Shown here piece after piece: positions 4,302 to 48,718 of a stretch of 50,247 nt of DNA (its first letter is position 1; each line of letters opens with the position of its first letter). The DNA lies in assembly GCA_017483665.1 (NCBI GenBank), contig JAFUVM010000075.1:1-50247 (forward strand), written 5' to 3'. The notes under the pieces are model-generated. The model saw nothing but the letters and a program-made list of their open reading frames with translations. It was not told where the DNA came from and ran no database searches. The stretch is from Bacteroidaceae bacterium (GTDB lineage Bacteria > Bacteroidota > Bacteroidia > Bacteroidales > Bacteroidaceae). A program made the position numbers and the translations under genes.

Positions 4302-4407
4302 AATTAAGAATTAAGAAATAAGAAATAAGAATTGAGGGGCAAAAATTGAGGGGCAAGAATTAAGGCACTTAACTCTTATTTCTTAATTCTTAATTCTTAA
4401 CTCTCAA
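4302..4407. repeat. Heptad-arm inverted repeat, AATTAAG type
   Basis: The left arm is four heptads (AATTAAG twice, AAATAAG twice). A centre contains GAATTGAGGGGCAA with a second near copy. The right arm is five or more heptads of the complementary type (TTAACTC, TTATTTC, TTAATTC twice, TTAACTC). The element begins about 10 nt after the nagB stop. The arms can pair into a long AT-rich hairpin, so it may also act as a terminator or mRNA 3' stabiliser. Confidence 0.8.
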
Positions 4408-43700: not shown

Positions 43701-44006
43701 GATGGTGCGCGGCTTGTAGCTACGGTCGTACTGGATGAAGATCTGCTTGTCCCTTATCTTCGCCTTGACGGGAAGTCCCTTGCAGAGGCGCTTCACGGCC
43801 TCCGTCATGGAGAGGCCCGTGAGGTCGGCATGGACGGGAAACTGGTCGAGGTCGTTGGCAATGAAGTTGATGGTGTAGTCCGACTTGACGTCGCGCAGGG
43901 CGGCAAGTGCCGTGGCAAGCGATTCGCCGCGGAAGTGGAGGTCGCGAGCCGAGAGGCTGAGGCCGGAGACTACATATATAATAATGTACAGGGCGAGTCG
44001 TTTCAT
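40740..44006 (-). CDS. TonB-dependent-type outer-membrane receptor with STN domain
   Basis: 1088 residues, carrying two inserted palindromic elements. Signal peptide 1-20 (SARDL). An STN-like signalling domain (about 22-92, DYTINFIANDL, LTGLSMTEAVKRLC) is followed by a carboxypeptidase-regulatory-like region (about 100-200), a plug-like part (LQEVTVKASRVRFYFRGDTVVYDASQF, 211-240) and a large barrel to a charged C-terminus. The STN domain and the upstream sigma/anti-sigma pair suggest ligand-dependent trans-envelope signalling of the FecA-FecR-FecI type. Its start overlaps the anti-sigma stop by 4 nt. Residues about 582-607 and 904-933 are encoded by palindromic elements and are probably in surface loops. 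Confidence 0.85.
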   Translation of the reverse strand: MKRLALYIIIYVVSGLSLSARDLHFRGESLATALAALRDVKSDYTINFIANDLDQFPVHADLTGLSMTEAVKRLCKGLPVKAKIRDKQIFIQYDRSYKPRTIKLSGVVCDARTRQHLMDAKVELLAEDSTLIDSVRARQSAFYYDGSGKEVDYDMARYNIEVPALPRHYIFRISMDDYRTTCFSYEVDRVGRRETSRNVSPFYLHKVSTTLQEVTVKASRVRFYFRGDTVVYDASQFQLAEGSMLDALLRQLPGVELKSDGRIYHNGKFVDDLLLNGKDLLKGSRKLMLENLPAYTVKDVAVYDKQTEENEWLGRTDESTQHHVIDVRLKREYMVGWIANIEAGAGLRQDETPYLARLFAMRSDERSNIRLYAKANNLSDEGSGDLVWGDGWQPDRSGKLSRNELVRVDANLMSDDKKRDYFVYVEAHHAKEWQDTRTTTQTFLPDGDTYDYGFGNMKNEAWDVSLWNRFIHNGKKLRTYATADAKYRYFRNASGSTSALFSAPVEVSHQLLDDLFSPTSPRPNLRDTLINRQLRESKGTGHDIEATAYLFETLKIKGSGDYMNFGINGNYKENKRQEFSRQQTLSNSPLKGENSLPLREGWGGSAGPLFRHQYIDAPPRSKFKLNSFVQYTFMLGEHYRQLVLGYRFSHSNQREQESIYRLDRLPNADSSFSKPIDLLPSVTEYQQVFDRTNSHLAHYIDNTNAFWADFKYGLGQKAWGQFYLDFRIDATLNAQRHDYERGSIDTLLHRFSPTFEFKTKPWLRTKEGHHAGLEVRVRNEAPELLNHAGIVDDTDPMNIRIGNPGLRYAIRTDAVLDGNLYSLQKRMHNRVDLSYGFTHNAIGMGQIYDRSTGRRTFIPTNVNGNWDASAKHTINYSFGDGKKHSAGMVTQFSYRNSVDISQTEASLWESVPSAAGEASGNEALPQRGSGEGASVVRSATLSFSPKVSLSLGKHTLGFSSDVAWNRYTSDRTTFQNINAWQYRIGADAIVHLPWQFDLTTDLTLYGRTGYTDASLNTADVVWNARLSRALFKGNWIVMLDGFDILGQLSNITRTINAQGRTETYTGVLPRYGLLHVVYKFQKKPRKQE
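41209..41296. repeat. GC-palindromic element in the receptor gene, copy 1
   Basis: Hairpin CTCCCCCTTTGGGGGAG (41221-41237) and a second hairpin ACTCTCCCAAAGGGAG (41277-41292) flank a 39-nt centre. They encode residues about 904-933, rich in Gly, Ser and Glu. The reading frame is kept. Confidence 0.75.
42188..42263. repeat. GC-palindromic element in the receptor gene, copy 2
   Basis: A perfect 12-bp outer inverted repeat CAGCAGACCCTC/GAGGGTCTGCTG surrounds two hairpins, CCCTCCC/GGGAGGG (42205-42223) and CTCCCCC/GGGGGAG (42228-42246). The element is 76 nt and encodes residues about 582-607 without breaking the frame. Confidence 0.85.
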
Positions 44007-44638
44007 CTGCCGTCCTCCTTCCTTTCGTACGATTCGACGTGCAGAGTGTCGAAGTCCTGAATGAGTCGGAAGCCATCGAACATGTTCAGCGTCTCCACGA
44101 ACTCGGCGAGCGTCTGCGTGGTGTGGCAGGTGATGTAGAGGCGGAGCTGCTGCGGCTGCTTGTCGTGGAAGACGACCTGACGGTTGTAGTGCCTGCTGAC
44201 GACGGCGAGAATGCTGTCCAGGCGGATGTTCTCGAAGCGGAAGATGGTGTCGCCGTCCATCACCTCGTAGTAGAAACGCTGGCTGACGGTCTCCGTCGTG
44301 TCGGCCTGCACGGGGGCTTGCGGCGCTTTGTGCCAGTCGGAGAAGACGCGGTAACCGGCCAACGACATGAGGCCGAGGAAGGCAAAGGCAATGAAGATGG
44401 CGGCGACACGGACCCTCTCCCGACCTCTCCCTTGTAGGGAGAGGAGTAGTTTGCGCAGCCGTTTGTATTCACTCCTCTCCCTACAAGGGAGAGGTCGGGA
44501 GAGGGTCTTCTGCCACGCCGCCTCTGTGTCCGGCTCCCTGTCGAGTTCCACCATCGCCTGCTCCAGCTGCTGGTCGGAGTAGCGCTCCGGGTGCTCCTGC
44601 ATGTCGAGAAGCAGCTCTTTGTCGTACGAAGGGTTCAT
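44003..44638 (-). CDS. FecR-family anti-sigma factor with DUF4974-type domain
   Basis: 211 residues. A short cytoplasmic N-terminal region (1-76) is followed by a TM segment (about 80-98) and a periplasmic part (about 125-211; YYEVMDGDTIFRFENIRLDSILAVVSRHY, LNMFDGFRLIQDFDTLHV) of the FecR/DUF4974 type. It should hold the ECF sigma factor at the membrane and sense the receptor's STN domain. A perfect 37-bp inverted repeat encodes residues about 44-76, between the N-terminal domain and the TM. Start and stop overlap the sigma and receptor genes by 4 nt each, so the three are translationally coupled. Confidence 0.83.
   Translation of the reverse strand: MNPSYDKELLLDMQEHPERYSDQQLEQAMVELDREPDTEAAWQKTLSRPLPCRERSEYKRLRKLLLSLQGRGRERVRVAAIFIAFAFLGLMSLAGYRVFSDWHKAPQAPVQADTTETVSQRFYYEVMDGDTIFRFENIRLDSILAVVSRHYNRQVVFHDKQPQQLRLYITCHTTQTLAEFVETLNMFDGFRLIQDFDTLHVESYERKEDGR
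44411..44507. repeat. 97-nt element with perfect 37-bp inverted arms in the anti-sigma gene
   Basis: The left arm 44411-44447 and right arm 44471-44507 are exact reverse complements over 37 bp, around a 23-nt centre. Each arm also contains its own palindrome (CTCTCCC and GGGAGAG). The element encodes RPLPCRERSEYKRLRK and LLLSLQGRGRER in frame. It is the strongest cruciform candidate in the window. Confidence 0.95.
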
Positions 44639-45653: not shown

Positions 45654-46685
45654 TCAGTCTTTCTTCCCTTTCATGGCCTCGTATATCTTGGCCGTGATCT
45701 CTTCCAGAAGCTCGGGATTGTCGCGCAGGACTGCCTTCGTAGCCTCCTTGCCCTGACCAAGCTTCGAGCCGCCGTAGCTGAACCACGACCCGCTCTTCTG
45801 TATGATGTCGAAGTTGACGCCCAGGTCGACCACCTCTCCCTCACGGCAAATGCCCTCGCCGTACATAATCTCGAACTCGGCACGGCGGAAGGGAGGCGCC
45901 ACTTTGTTCTTCACCACCTTCACCTTCACCTCGTTGCCGATGACGTTGTCGCCGTCCTTGATGGGCGACGACTTGCGGATGTCGAGGCGGACCGACGCGT
46001 AGAACTTCAAGGCATTGCCGCCCGTGGTGGTCTCAGGATTGCCGAACATGATGCCAATCTTCTCGCGCAACTGGTTGATGAAGATGCAGGTGGTGTTCGT
46101 CTTGCTGATGGTAGCGGTGAGCTTGCGCAGGGCCTGACTCATCAGACGGGCTTGCAGGCCGACCTTGTTGTCGCCCATGTCGCCCTCGATCTCCGCTTTC
46201 GGCGTCAGGGCAGCCACAGAGTCGATGACGATGATGTCGACCGCTGCGCTGCGGATCAGCTGGTCGGCTATGTCGAGAGCCTGCTCTCCGTTGTCGGGTT
46301 GCGAAATGAGAAGTTCGTCGACGTTCACGCCCAGGTTGGCAGCATAGAAGCGGTCGAAGGCATGCTCGGCATCGATGAAGGCCGCGATGCCCCCTTGCTT
46401 CTGTGCCTCGGCAATGGCATGAATGGCCAGCGTCGTCTTGCCGGACGACTCGGGACCGTATATCTCAACGATTCTACCTCTGGGGTAGCCGCCCACGCCC
46501 AGCGCGTAGTCCAGCGCGATGGAGCCCGTCGGGATGACCTGGATGTTGTCTATCTTCTCTTCGCCGAGCTTCATGATGGAGCCCTTGCCGAAGTCCTTCT
46601 CTATCTTCGCCATAGCCGCCTGCAGCGCCTTCAGCTTCTCGCTCTGCTGCCCAGGGGCAGCTGCTTCCATTTCTTTCTTTGCCAT
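45654..46685 (-). CDS. recA: Recombinase A
   Basis: 343-residue RecA, the DNA strand-exchange and SOS coprotease protein. The P-loop is GPESSGKT (77-84), and the core contains [50 protein letters not shown] and the usual L1/L2 regions. Length is normal. No recA promoter is recognised: the 14 nt upstream lead straight into the heptad arm of the S23 element, so recA is probably expressed by read-through from the upstream dehydrogenase promoter or from a start inside the element. Confidence 0.97.
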
Positions 46686-46699
46686 AGTTGTGATTTTTT

Positions 46700-47199
46700 G
46701 GGGTTAGGGGTTAGAGGTTAGGGGTTAGAGAATTGTCCCTGAGCCCCTGATTCTCGCGTCCATAACCAAGTTATACTTTTTTCTTTTCTTCTAAATTATT
46801 TCTAAGACCTATTATCATCTTTGCTATAGTAGCAATCCTCTTTTCCTGCGTTTCCATTTCGGTTGCCGTGATGTAGCCCAAAAGATGAGCAATCTCAAAC
46901 TGGCACATAACCTCCATGAGCGAGCCGTTGCTGACCTCGAGGAAGTGTATTCGTTCCTTTATCGAGAACCTACCCATGCCTTCAGCAATGTTAGAAGGTA
47001 TCGATACCGCAGCACGTTGTATTTGGTTAGTCAGGCCGTATGATTCCTGTGGCGGGAACTTCTTGGTGAGATTGTAGACGTCTGCTAACAGCAGCATTGA
47101 CTGTTGATAGACTAAGAGCTTCCTATAATAAAAGTCTTGCATCGCACATCCAGCTTCCAAAAACTATTCTCTAACCACTAACCTCTAACCACTAACCAC
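46700..47199. mobile_element. S23/IVS-like element with inverted heptad arms
   Basis: Arms 46700-46733 (GGGGTTA twice, GAGGTTA, GGGGTTA, GAGAAT) and 47166-47199 (reverse complement GTGGTTA twice, GAGGTTA, GTGGTTA, GAGAAT) match at 31 of 34 positions; all three differences are at heptad position 2. Between them lies one AT-rich gene for a four-helix-bundle protein. The right end is 1 nt from the dehydrogenase stop and the left end 14 nt from the recA ATG. Two short elements nearby (47586, 48631) have the same inner junctions. The layout resembles the 23S rRNA intervening sequence with its S23 gene, but outside rRNA. Confidence 0.75.
46771..47142 (-). CDS. Four-helix-bundle protein, 23S rRNA IVS (S23) family
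   Basis: 123 residues from the ATG at 47142; an upstream TTG is less likely. The sequence fits the S23/four-helix-bundle family: MQDFYYRKLLVYQQSMLLLADVYNLTKKFP, LTNQIQRAAVSIPSNIAEGMGR, KERIHFLEVSNGSLMEVMCQFEIAHLLGYI and TQEKRIATIAKMIIGLRNNLEE. The family is named for proteins encoded inside 23S rRNA intervening sequences, and relatives include the Avd accessory protein of diversity-generating retroelements; function is unclear, nucleic-acid binding is suspected. Base composition is visibly more AT-rich than recA and the dehydrogenase on either side, which suggests acquisition. It is bounded by inverted heptad arms. Confidence 0.88.
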   Translation of the reverse strand: MQDFYYRKLLVYQQSMLLLADVYNLTKKFPPQESYGLTNQIQRAAVSIPSNIAEGMGRFSIKERIHFLEVSNGSLMEVMCQFEIAHLLGYITATEMETQEKRIATIAKMIIGLRNNLEEKKKV

Positions 47200-47200
47200 T

Positions 47201-48520
<1,320 letters not shown>

Positions 48521-48630: not shown

Positions 48631-48718
48631 GTTAGAGGTTAGGGGTTAGGGGTGAGAGGATTGCTGTGGAAGCATGTATTCTCTAACCTCTGACCTCTGA
48701 CCACTAACCACAGACCTC
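48631..48718. repeat. Short heptad-arm element after the Spy-like gene
   Basis: The left arm ends GAGGAT at 48661 and the right arm begins ATTCTC at 48678, giving a 16-nt centre as in the element at 47586. Arms are built of GAGGTTA, GGGGTTA, GTGGTCA and GAGGTCA heptads. The right arm touches the stop codon of the Spy-like gene. Confidence 0.9.

Follow-up and report, generated by a model that had tools for sequence, protein, structure and literature searches.

A proposed class of very small mobile elements in which one S23 gene lies between inverted tandem heptad arrays

Introduction

Intervening sequences (IVSs) of 23S rRNA genes that bear an S23 gene are reported from Leptospira, Coxiella, Xanthomonas and others; they have been known for more than 25 years, yet neither what they do nor where they come from is considered clear (PMC4990558). 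In the Coxiella IVS, tandem GACAGAT heptamers stand before the S23 gene, the first of them holding the RNase III site, and an older proposal cited in the same paper holds that IVSs are mobile and that their open reading frame is needed for mobility (PMC4990558). Non-autonomous hairpins and a specificity between arms and protein are not among the features described for IVSs in the available parts of that paper.

Heptamer repeats have been described separately. The units GGGAATC in Xanthomonas, GGGGAYT in Nostoc and TAACTGA in Beggiatoaceae, cyanobacteria and some Bacteroidetes have a period of 7 nt and are mostly intergenic, like the S23 arms reported here. For the Xanthomonas repeat, 70 and 75 inverted pairs are given for two genomes (PMC4692102), and in a survey cited in PMC4679880 heptamers outnumbered all other classes of longer simple repeats in the majority of genomes. 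The main texts of these two papers do not mention S23, and the roles that they discuss are G-quadruplex or translational ones. The S23 family has also been connected to Avd of diversity-generating retroelements, a homology noted earlier (PMC10053308).

Here we describe an element that shares with 23S IVSs the S23 family, a similar size, complementary ends and sense orientation, as well as heptamers before S23 (as in Coxiella) and inverted heptad arms (as in Azospirillum), but which lies outside rRNA genes, whereas IVSs are described inside them. A literature search, which covered mostly titles and abstracts, few subscription papers and no preprints, found no work in which S23 genes located elsewhere than in rRNA are linked to heptad arms or assigned to a mobile class. 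We propose, with a probability of roughly three in four, that this element belongs to a widespread class of very small mobile elements, each consisting of one S23 gene between inverted arrays.

Results

The S23 element next to recA

The window (the whole stretch of DNA that was analysed, 50,247 nt) carries an S23 gene and two heptad arrays between a saccharopine dehydrogenase gene and recA:

46697..47200, - strand: whole S23 heptad-arm element, in the same sense as the dehydrogenase, S23 and recA frames; the junction is S23-free in relatives
47163..47197, - strand: upstream arm, 5' of S23, GGTTAGT GGTTAGA GGTTAGT GGTTAGA plus GAATAGT
46771..47160, - strand: S23 / 23S_rRNA_IVP gene, 129 codons from the TTG at 47160 or 123 from the ATG at 47142
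46702..46736, + strand: downstream arm in inverted orientation on the 3' side of S23, separated by 16 nt from the recA start codon

On the - strand, the dehydrogenase frame runs as far as 47201 and the recA frame begins at 46685, so the element occupies the whole gap, as the initial annotation had stated. An inverted-repeat search found the arms (46702-46736 and 47163-47197) to be 35 nt long and 91% complementary, and re-alignment bore out an earlier 34-nt reading in which 31 positions match and the mismatches (positions 2, 9 and 23) fall in a single heptad phase. This phase-matching had been taken to suggest that arms are corrected heptad by heptad, which was not supported; such correction is not needed because the differences reflect position 7 of the unit GGTTAGN, which is degenerate (A 51, G 32, T 26 and C 0 among the copies in the examined sequence).

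To obtain the arm score, the upstream flank was locally aligned to the reverse-complemented downstream flank, and the score was compared with mismatched pairs, i.e. the upstream flank of one S23 locus and the downstream flank of another. The window element scored 26, compared with a mean of 8.5, a 99th percentile of 14 and a maximum of 21 for 480 mismatched pairs; in a second set of 438 pairs the mean was 8.2 and the maximum 24.

The encoded protein belongs to PF05635 (E = 2.4e-35) and also to TIGR02436, 'four helix bundle protein'. PF05635 was the only Pfam domain found in it, with no transposase, recombinase or HUH/Y1 domain, and to our knowledge S23 has no known catalytic domain. Two marks of an IVS, S23 and complementary, stem-capable ends, were both present in an element that lies not within any rRNA gene but between the dehydrogenase gene and recA. 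The S23 gene is also enclosed by inverted tandem arrays with a unit of 7-9 nt, a mark of the proposed heptad-arm class. An Rfam search of the window returned tRNAs only and no family for the hairpins. No sigma-70-like promoter match was found around the element, which is weak evidence since only this promoter type was covered.

Other identities were rejected, namely a CRISPR array (the window units are contiguous 7-nt repeats that have no spacers and are inverted about S23), a known defence-system protein (no PADLOC match) and spread by phages (0 tblastn matches at E 1e-3 in 50,697 phage records, with the window protein as the one query).

S23 loci, arrays and hairpins in the window's genome

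A profile search located PF05635 at 14 places in the 3.06 Mb draft genome, and 11 of these were examined (L007 is cut by a contig end, and L013 and L014 had no tblastn match). Inverted arms were found at all 11, with scores of 14-27, and their units, read by eye, vary by locus (GTTGACGA, AGTAGTTA, GGATTAG, CATTGAC, TGTACAA etc.). Each element sits in the spacer between two genes of the same direction, after the stop of the first and before the start of the second; at L012 the S23 frame is short (67 codons).

The pattern GGTTAGNGGTTAG / GGTTAGNGGTTAGN had 250 matches genome-wide and 0 in the backwards-read control. In 655 kb, part of which was chosen for hits, 91 of 109 GGTTAGN matches had a convergent match on the opposite strand within 200 nt and thus form S23-less hairpins. 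When compared with the ends of the window element, GGTTAG hairpin cores gave a mean of 8.9 forward, 7.9 in reverse and 6.9 shuffled, which is only suggestive of a relationship between the two.

Tandem arrays of period 7 numbered 49 in 373 kb, a sample that includes the window together with C16 and C17, both chosen for known GGTTAG arrays. Without these stretches there were 29 in 284 kb, compared with 0, 0, 0, 8, 15, 3, 3 and 2 arrays of periods 4, 5, 6, 8, 9, 10, 11 and 12, respectively. An inverted partner within 900 nt was found for 18 of the 57 arrays of period 7 or 8 and none for the other 39; the partnered arrays comprised 14 hairpins (gaps of 23-61 nt), 3 that involve the window S23 element and 1 with a gap of 644 nt. 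Outside the window element, 39/55 arrays matched an S23 arm of their own genome, compared with a mean of 4.4 and a maximum of 17 for foreign control sets of 11 S23 arms from other genomes; when hit-chosen stretches were left out the numbers were 24/37 versus 2.8 (maximum 10). Further repeats are present in the window itself (no strand assigned):

47586..47670: S23-less GGTTAGN hairpin inside the saccharopine dehydrogenase gene, where the reading frame stays open
48631..48711: a further inverted pair of GGTTAGN arrays, lying upstream of the dehydrogenase gene, with a partner score of 11, below the threshold of 13
4304..4400: TTAAGAA-type heptad hairpin, resembling the arms of the same-genome S23 locus L012
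44852..44957: CATTGAC-type heptad hairpin, resembling the arms of the same-genome S23 locus L006
38570..38597: single GGATTAG-type heptad array, with the unit of the same-genome S23 locus L005

Most relatives aligned at 47586..47670 are shorter and have no hairpin, and one (G073) has a different unit. At 44367-44582 of the window, overlapping ORFs on both strands encode similar peptides (RTLSRPLPCRERS, LSLQGRGRERV), which points to a GC-rich inverted repeat within the ORF 44003-44638.

Arrays of this kind might be slippage microsatellites or regulatory sites, with S23 as a cargo or host regulatory gene lying between them by chance. Arrays often stand just before start codons, for which translational regulation has been proposed, and two strains differ mostly by 7-nt steps, as reported in PMC4679880. 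Slippage, however, makes no inverted pairs, ties no unit to the enclosed S23 and gives no preference for period 7 over periods 4-6 and 10-12, and Avd, from the same family, has no arms. We consider this explanation highly improbable.

Presence, absence and switching at orthologous sites

The element is not fixed at recA. No S23 is present there in G053, which among 101 sampled genomes from the genus is the closest at this locus (its dehydrogenase gene is 93% identical), and the junction is also S23-free in G013, G036 and G090. In G073 the same junction holds an S23 element with the unit GCAAGGR, versus GGTTAGN in the window. An armed S23 at the same place in a second species would be expected if the element and its arms were an ancestral, fixed part of the recA operon, but this idea was rejected on the four S23-free junctions, and with the difference in unit between the window and G073 it retains virtually no probability. 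In the four S23-free genomes a single CGTTATN heptad array stands before recA (L046, L049, L053 and L063).

Mobility was assessed by comparing ten S23 sites of the window's genome in eight relatives, giving 80 site-by-relative cells. The sequence was contiguous across the junction in 33 cells, several of which have a single short array of another unit, and 14 cells had an S23 match; the remaining cells contained other inserts or incomplete matches. Twenty short inserts (78-267 nt) were fetched and classified by eye. Only L322 and L325 are heptad hairpins, and two more are single heptad arrays; of the other palindromes, nine belong to a 9-nt type (CACGAATTG, ACGGATTTA) and seven are GC-rich. 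The 9-nt palindromes (L313-L315, L320, L321, L323, L324, L326, L329) may represent the non-autonomous counterparts of an S23 type with 9-nt units. The GC-rich type (GACCCMCCCC...CTCCC/GGGAG; L316-L319, L327, L328, L330) uses the same spacers as the S23 elements, which suggests that small palindromes of unrelated kinds share operon spacers as landing sites.

Between species the arms switch unit jointly, at recA as well as at two other sites: site L005 has GGATTAG, GGATTAA or AGATTAA depending on the species, with both arms changed together, and site L010 has TGTACAA or ACTATTT. One insert of 249 nt (L312) has arms identical at 46/47 positions and the S23 middle deleted; of the gene only 23 codons at the start and about 15 at the end remain, in different frames. 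L312 is a decayed, internally deleted S23 copy inside intact arms. Another insert, of 650 nt (L306, at site L008 in G065), has AATTCAAA-type arms with a score of 28 and no S23 match at E 1e-3. In the window's genus the elements measure about 420-650 bp.

For S23-less hairpins, a contiguous junction was found in relatives for 6 of the 10 searched, with poor alignments at the ends, and the 'empty' hairpin junction of G065 still had a GGTTAG array. No target-site duplication could be read from the empty sites, which were diverged or had a short stretch replaced.

The layout in other genomes and on plasmids

In Bacteroidota, the phylum of the window, S23 is present in 116 of 148 genomes. The median arm score was 14, and scores of at least 15 were obtained at 38 of the 80 loci used (out of 83), or 37/79 after removal of L011, whose row duplicates L006, versus 0.6% of mismatched pairs. 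A set from many phyla, found with a peptide pattern in genome contigs (73 of 80 loci used, 7 dropped for short flanks), gave a median of 15 and at least 15 in 38/73 versus a null of 1.1%. About half of the S23 loci were thus below this strict threshold. No rRNA match was found in the examined DNA around the 80 genome-contig loci (0/80).

When the loci were pooled, the best joint period was 7 in 112/152, 8 in 28 and 9 in 4, whereas control flanks taken further out at the same loci gave period 7 in 15/142 and favoured the codon-like periods 6, 9 and 12. A joint match of at least 0.75 was reached at 68/152 S23 loci versus 1/142 control flanks, and each arm has 3-5 units in 73 of 89 tallied loci. 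Near-identical loci were retained in the main arm, period, Mantel and tree tests and thinned in later reruns.

In the order of Dokdonella, 34/81 genomes carry S23, and the arm score was at least 13 in 15 of the 29 loci taken versus 3.4% for the null; the arm units there include GGGAATC (L443) and GGGATTC (L448). From 35 plasmid matches 10 were taken, and all nine that have both flanks are armed, with scores of 14-31 (L512 has no upstream flank); the plasmid hosts are Nostoc, Anabaena, Calothrix, Stanieria, Picosynechococcus, Pseudanabaena, Geminocystis and Azospirillum. S23 genes elsewhere, in Bacteroidota, many phyla, the Dokdonella order and on plasmids, thus do have inverted heptad arms, as had been expected for an IVS-like mobile element. 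In 20 genomes lacking S23 no period-7 arrays were found in 366 kb, versus 6 in 344 kb for 20 genomes with S23, a comparison of small counts in which the S23-positive genomes were hand-picked and 5 of the 40 stretches are short contigs.

A MAG of candidate division WOR-3 (G255, the source of L205) had 29 S23 matches, the highest number among 14 genomes. This set of 14 was chosen partly for strong arms, and the figure of 26/30 is therefore no unbiased rate.

Arm units follow the S23 protein

The higher the identity of two S23 proteins, the more similar were their arms when compared in the same sense: mean arm similarity was 4.5 below 20% identity and 8.6 at 60-75% (Mantel test, 0/2000), and no rise was observed when the arms were compared in antisense. 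With one locus per 60%-identity group, the correlation was weaker but persisted (r = 0.13, 1/2000; 82 loci). Some of the similar pairs cross phyla as judged by record title, e.g. L177 with L216 and L206 with L211. Unit length (7 or 8) changed 13 times on the S23 tree, whereas 200 shuffles gave 25.6 changes on average and never fewer than 20, and the nearest neighbour of an octad locus was itself an octad locus in 19/28 cases (0/5000 permutations), or 14/23 after thinning to below 70% identity (0/5000). The initial annotation had suggested that S23 is a mobility factor; this co-divergence of arm and protein supports such a role only indirectly, and S23 may have it.

The elements also have a strand sense. 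AG exceeds CT in the upstream arm at 80 of 93 loci, with the reverse at 4, and at 101 of 141 loci (out of 152) both neighbouring genes are co-directional with S23, with both opposite at 10. This orientation bias could be purely selective.

The inverted layout could in principle be kept by selection for an RNA stem, if the arms were an RNA device whose pairing in mRNA lets RNase III cut out the S23 message, in the manner of 23S rRNA IVSs. The sense RNA is predicted to fold with the arms paired (z = -2.70, 0/100 shuffles as good). However, among the arm mismatches at 93 loci, 158 were transversions, and the 49 that are wobble-compatible in the sense RNA were outnumbered by 69 reverse transitions (p = 0.08, opposite to the direction expected for an RNA stem). 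Given that the mismatches have no G-U bias, an RNA stem is unlikely to maintain the arms, and RNA-stem selection as the reason for the arms was rejected on this direction test. Moreover, partnerless arrays are common, and a stem would not explain why the unit goes with the S23 protein. The stem may still be cut, and it may isolate or destroy the S23 message, but as an explanation of the arms the RNA device is unlikely.

Near-invariant S23 residues and comparison with Avd

Six residues are near-invariant in S23 (Q40, R43, S47, N51, E54 and E77 in window numbering from the ATG), and all are present in the window protein. Each occurs in 67 or 68 of 68 non-redundant S23 proteins found by HMM, a set from which the 80 pattern-found loci were excluded because a peptide pattern had been used to find them. 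Both solved S23 structures have five chains, and we take the S23 oligomer to be a pentamer.

Avd resembles S23 through weak profile matches: the window protein matches the Avd model NF033474 with E = 1.2e-5 and 25.6 bits, which fails the cut-off of 80, and S23 matches the Avd model phrog_3206 with E = 2.4e-8. In a survey of Avd, 26 of 30 loci were used. Among the 24 Avd-type homologues, 15 of which are above the Avd cut-off, none had arms scoring at least 13, and none had the complete six-residue set, with a few having one or two of the letters. L493 and L494 carry all six S23 residues and were not counted as Avd; neither has an inverted arm of at least 13, and one has a period-7 signal of 0.77.

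These matches bear on the possibility that an unlinked reverse transcriptase or host enzyme moves the elements and that S23 is a nucleic-acid chaperone, in the way that the reverse transcriptase of diversity-generating retroelements uses Avd. Insertion in sense-oriented sites and in rRNA would also suit an RNA route. Against this, Avd has no arms and the six S23 residues are not conserved in it, so that the two proteins could have a fold in common without having the same partner, and we regard this explanation as doubtful.

A 23S rRNA intervening sequence with heptad arms

One of the plasmid loci, L511 of Azospirillum lipoferum, is a 23S rRNA gene (Rfam LSU, 2147 bits) with an S23 insert that has inverted heptad arms (score 21). 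The 23S copy on plasmid AZO_p1 of the same strain has no insert. Compared with this copy and with A. ramasamyi (98.4-99.6% identity), the insert of 452-454 nt replaces a hairpin tip of 17-19 nt. Since the Azospirillum IVS has the same kind of arms, IVSs look like an rRNA-resident branch of the heptad-arm elements. The earlier reading of the window element as a mobile, IVS-related element living outside rRNA is supported by this link, by the arms at other loci, by the absence of fixation at recA and by the Coxiella heptamers.

Published heptamers and cas operons

Solimonas (L145, genome G249) has one S23 match, which lies between GGGAATC arrays, and 79 GGGAATC doublets, many of them as inverted pairs. 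Dokdonella has 19 doublets, and of six genomes from other groups five have 0 and one has 1. On C31, C48 and C57 of Solimonas some inverted GGGAATC pairs are about 240-300 nt apart and not about 50; these are perhaps longer S23-less elements.

S23 elements with heptad arms were also found in cas operons on plasmids of Anabaena sp. 90 (L504), Pseudanabaena galeata (L509) and Picosynechococcus PCC 7003 (L508), in the arrangements cas6-S23-cas4 and Cmr2-S23-Cmr3. In PCC 7002 the Cmr2-Cmr3 junction has no S23 (91% identity), and in Dolichospermum UHCC 0315A cas6-cas4 has no S23 (98.7%) but another stretch of 273 nt in that place. A '23S rRNA IVP' entry appears in a CRISPR-association figure (PMC10910872), and insertions of this kind may be the reason why that published screen scored S23 as CRISPR-linked.

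Discussion

We propose a new class of mobile elements that have one S23 gene between inverted arms, in each of which a unit of 7 nt (or 8-9 nt) is most often repeated 3-5 times. The proposal is based on the layout, its spread over phyla, the empty and filled junctions, the S23-less hairpins, the deletion derivative L312, the co-divergence of arm and protein, the sense bias and the Azospirillum IVS. Mobility would follow from the differences seen between the sequences of related species.

How such an element might move can be outlined. An S23 oligomer would bind its own arm unit in DNA, conceivably with one arm unit per subunit, a guess that the 3-5 units in 73/89 loci fit and do not prove. S23 would then pair the two ends of the element and drive insertion into transcribed spacers or hairpin tips, and S23-less hairpins with the same arms would be moved in trans. 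The S23 gene would be read from host transcripts, with which the absence of a sigma-70-like promoter match agrees weakly. S23 itself is a candidate for cutting and joining because its residues Q, R, S, N, E and E are near-invariant and not conserved in Avd; alternatively, a host nuclease or a replication-linked exchange of hairpins could do this. Exchange at hairpins is a guess suggested by the insert that replaces a hairpin tip and by the palindromes that alternate in the same spacers.

REP/BIME palindromes with RAYT are a system of genome-wide non-autonomous palindromes and few gene-bearing copies with matching ends. The S23 elements are similar in having S23-less palindromes genome-wide and few gene copies with matching ends, but their ends are tandem 7-mers and the S23 loci of one genome differ in unit. 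With MITEs and insertion sequences that have terminal inverted repeats they share inverted ends and an internal deletion derivative (L312), and they differ in having no recognised transposase or recombinase, no target duplication that could be read from the diverged or altered empty sites, and tandem arrays as ends.

On balance, and with less assurance than for the class itself, we favour the view that S23 acts as mobility protein, and possibly as catalyst, for a new class present in many phyla in which each lineage reads its own 7-, 8- or 9-nt word, and that the 23S IVSs, the Xanthomonas, Nostoc and Beggiatoaceae heptamers and the S23 genes of cas operons are members, remnants or insertions of it. 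One small protein family, with its own inverted arm word and its S23-less hairpins, would then link the IVSs to heptamer repeats that so far have had no agreed origin, and the class would be one of mobile elements without a known type of transposase. Screens that score S23 as CRISPR-linked would call for caution, and the pairing of protein and word could be decoded over hundreds of natural variants.
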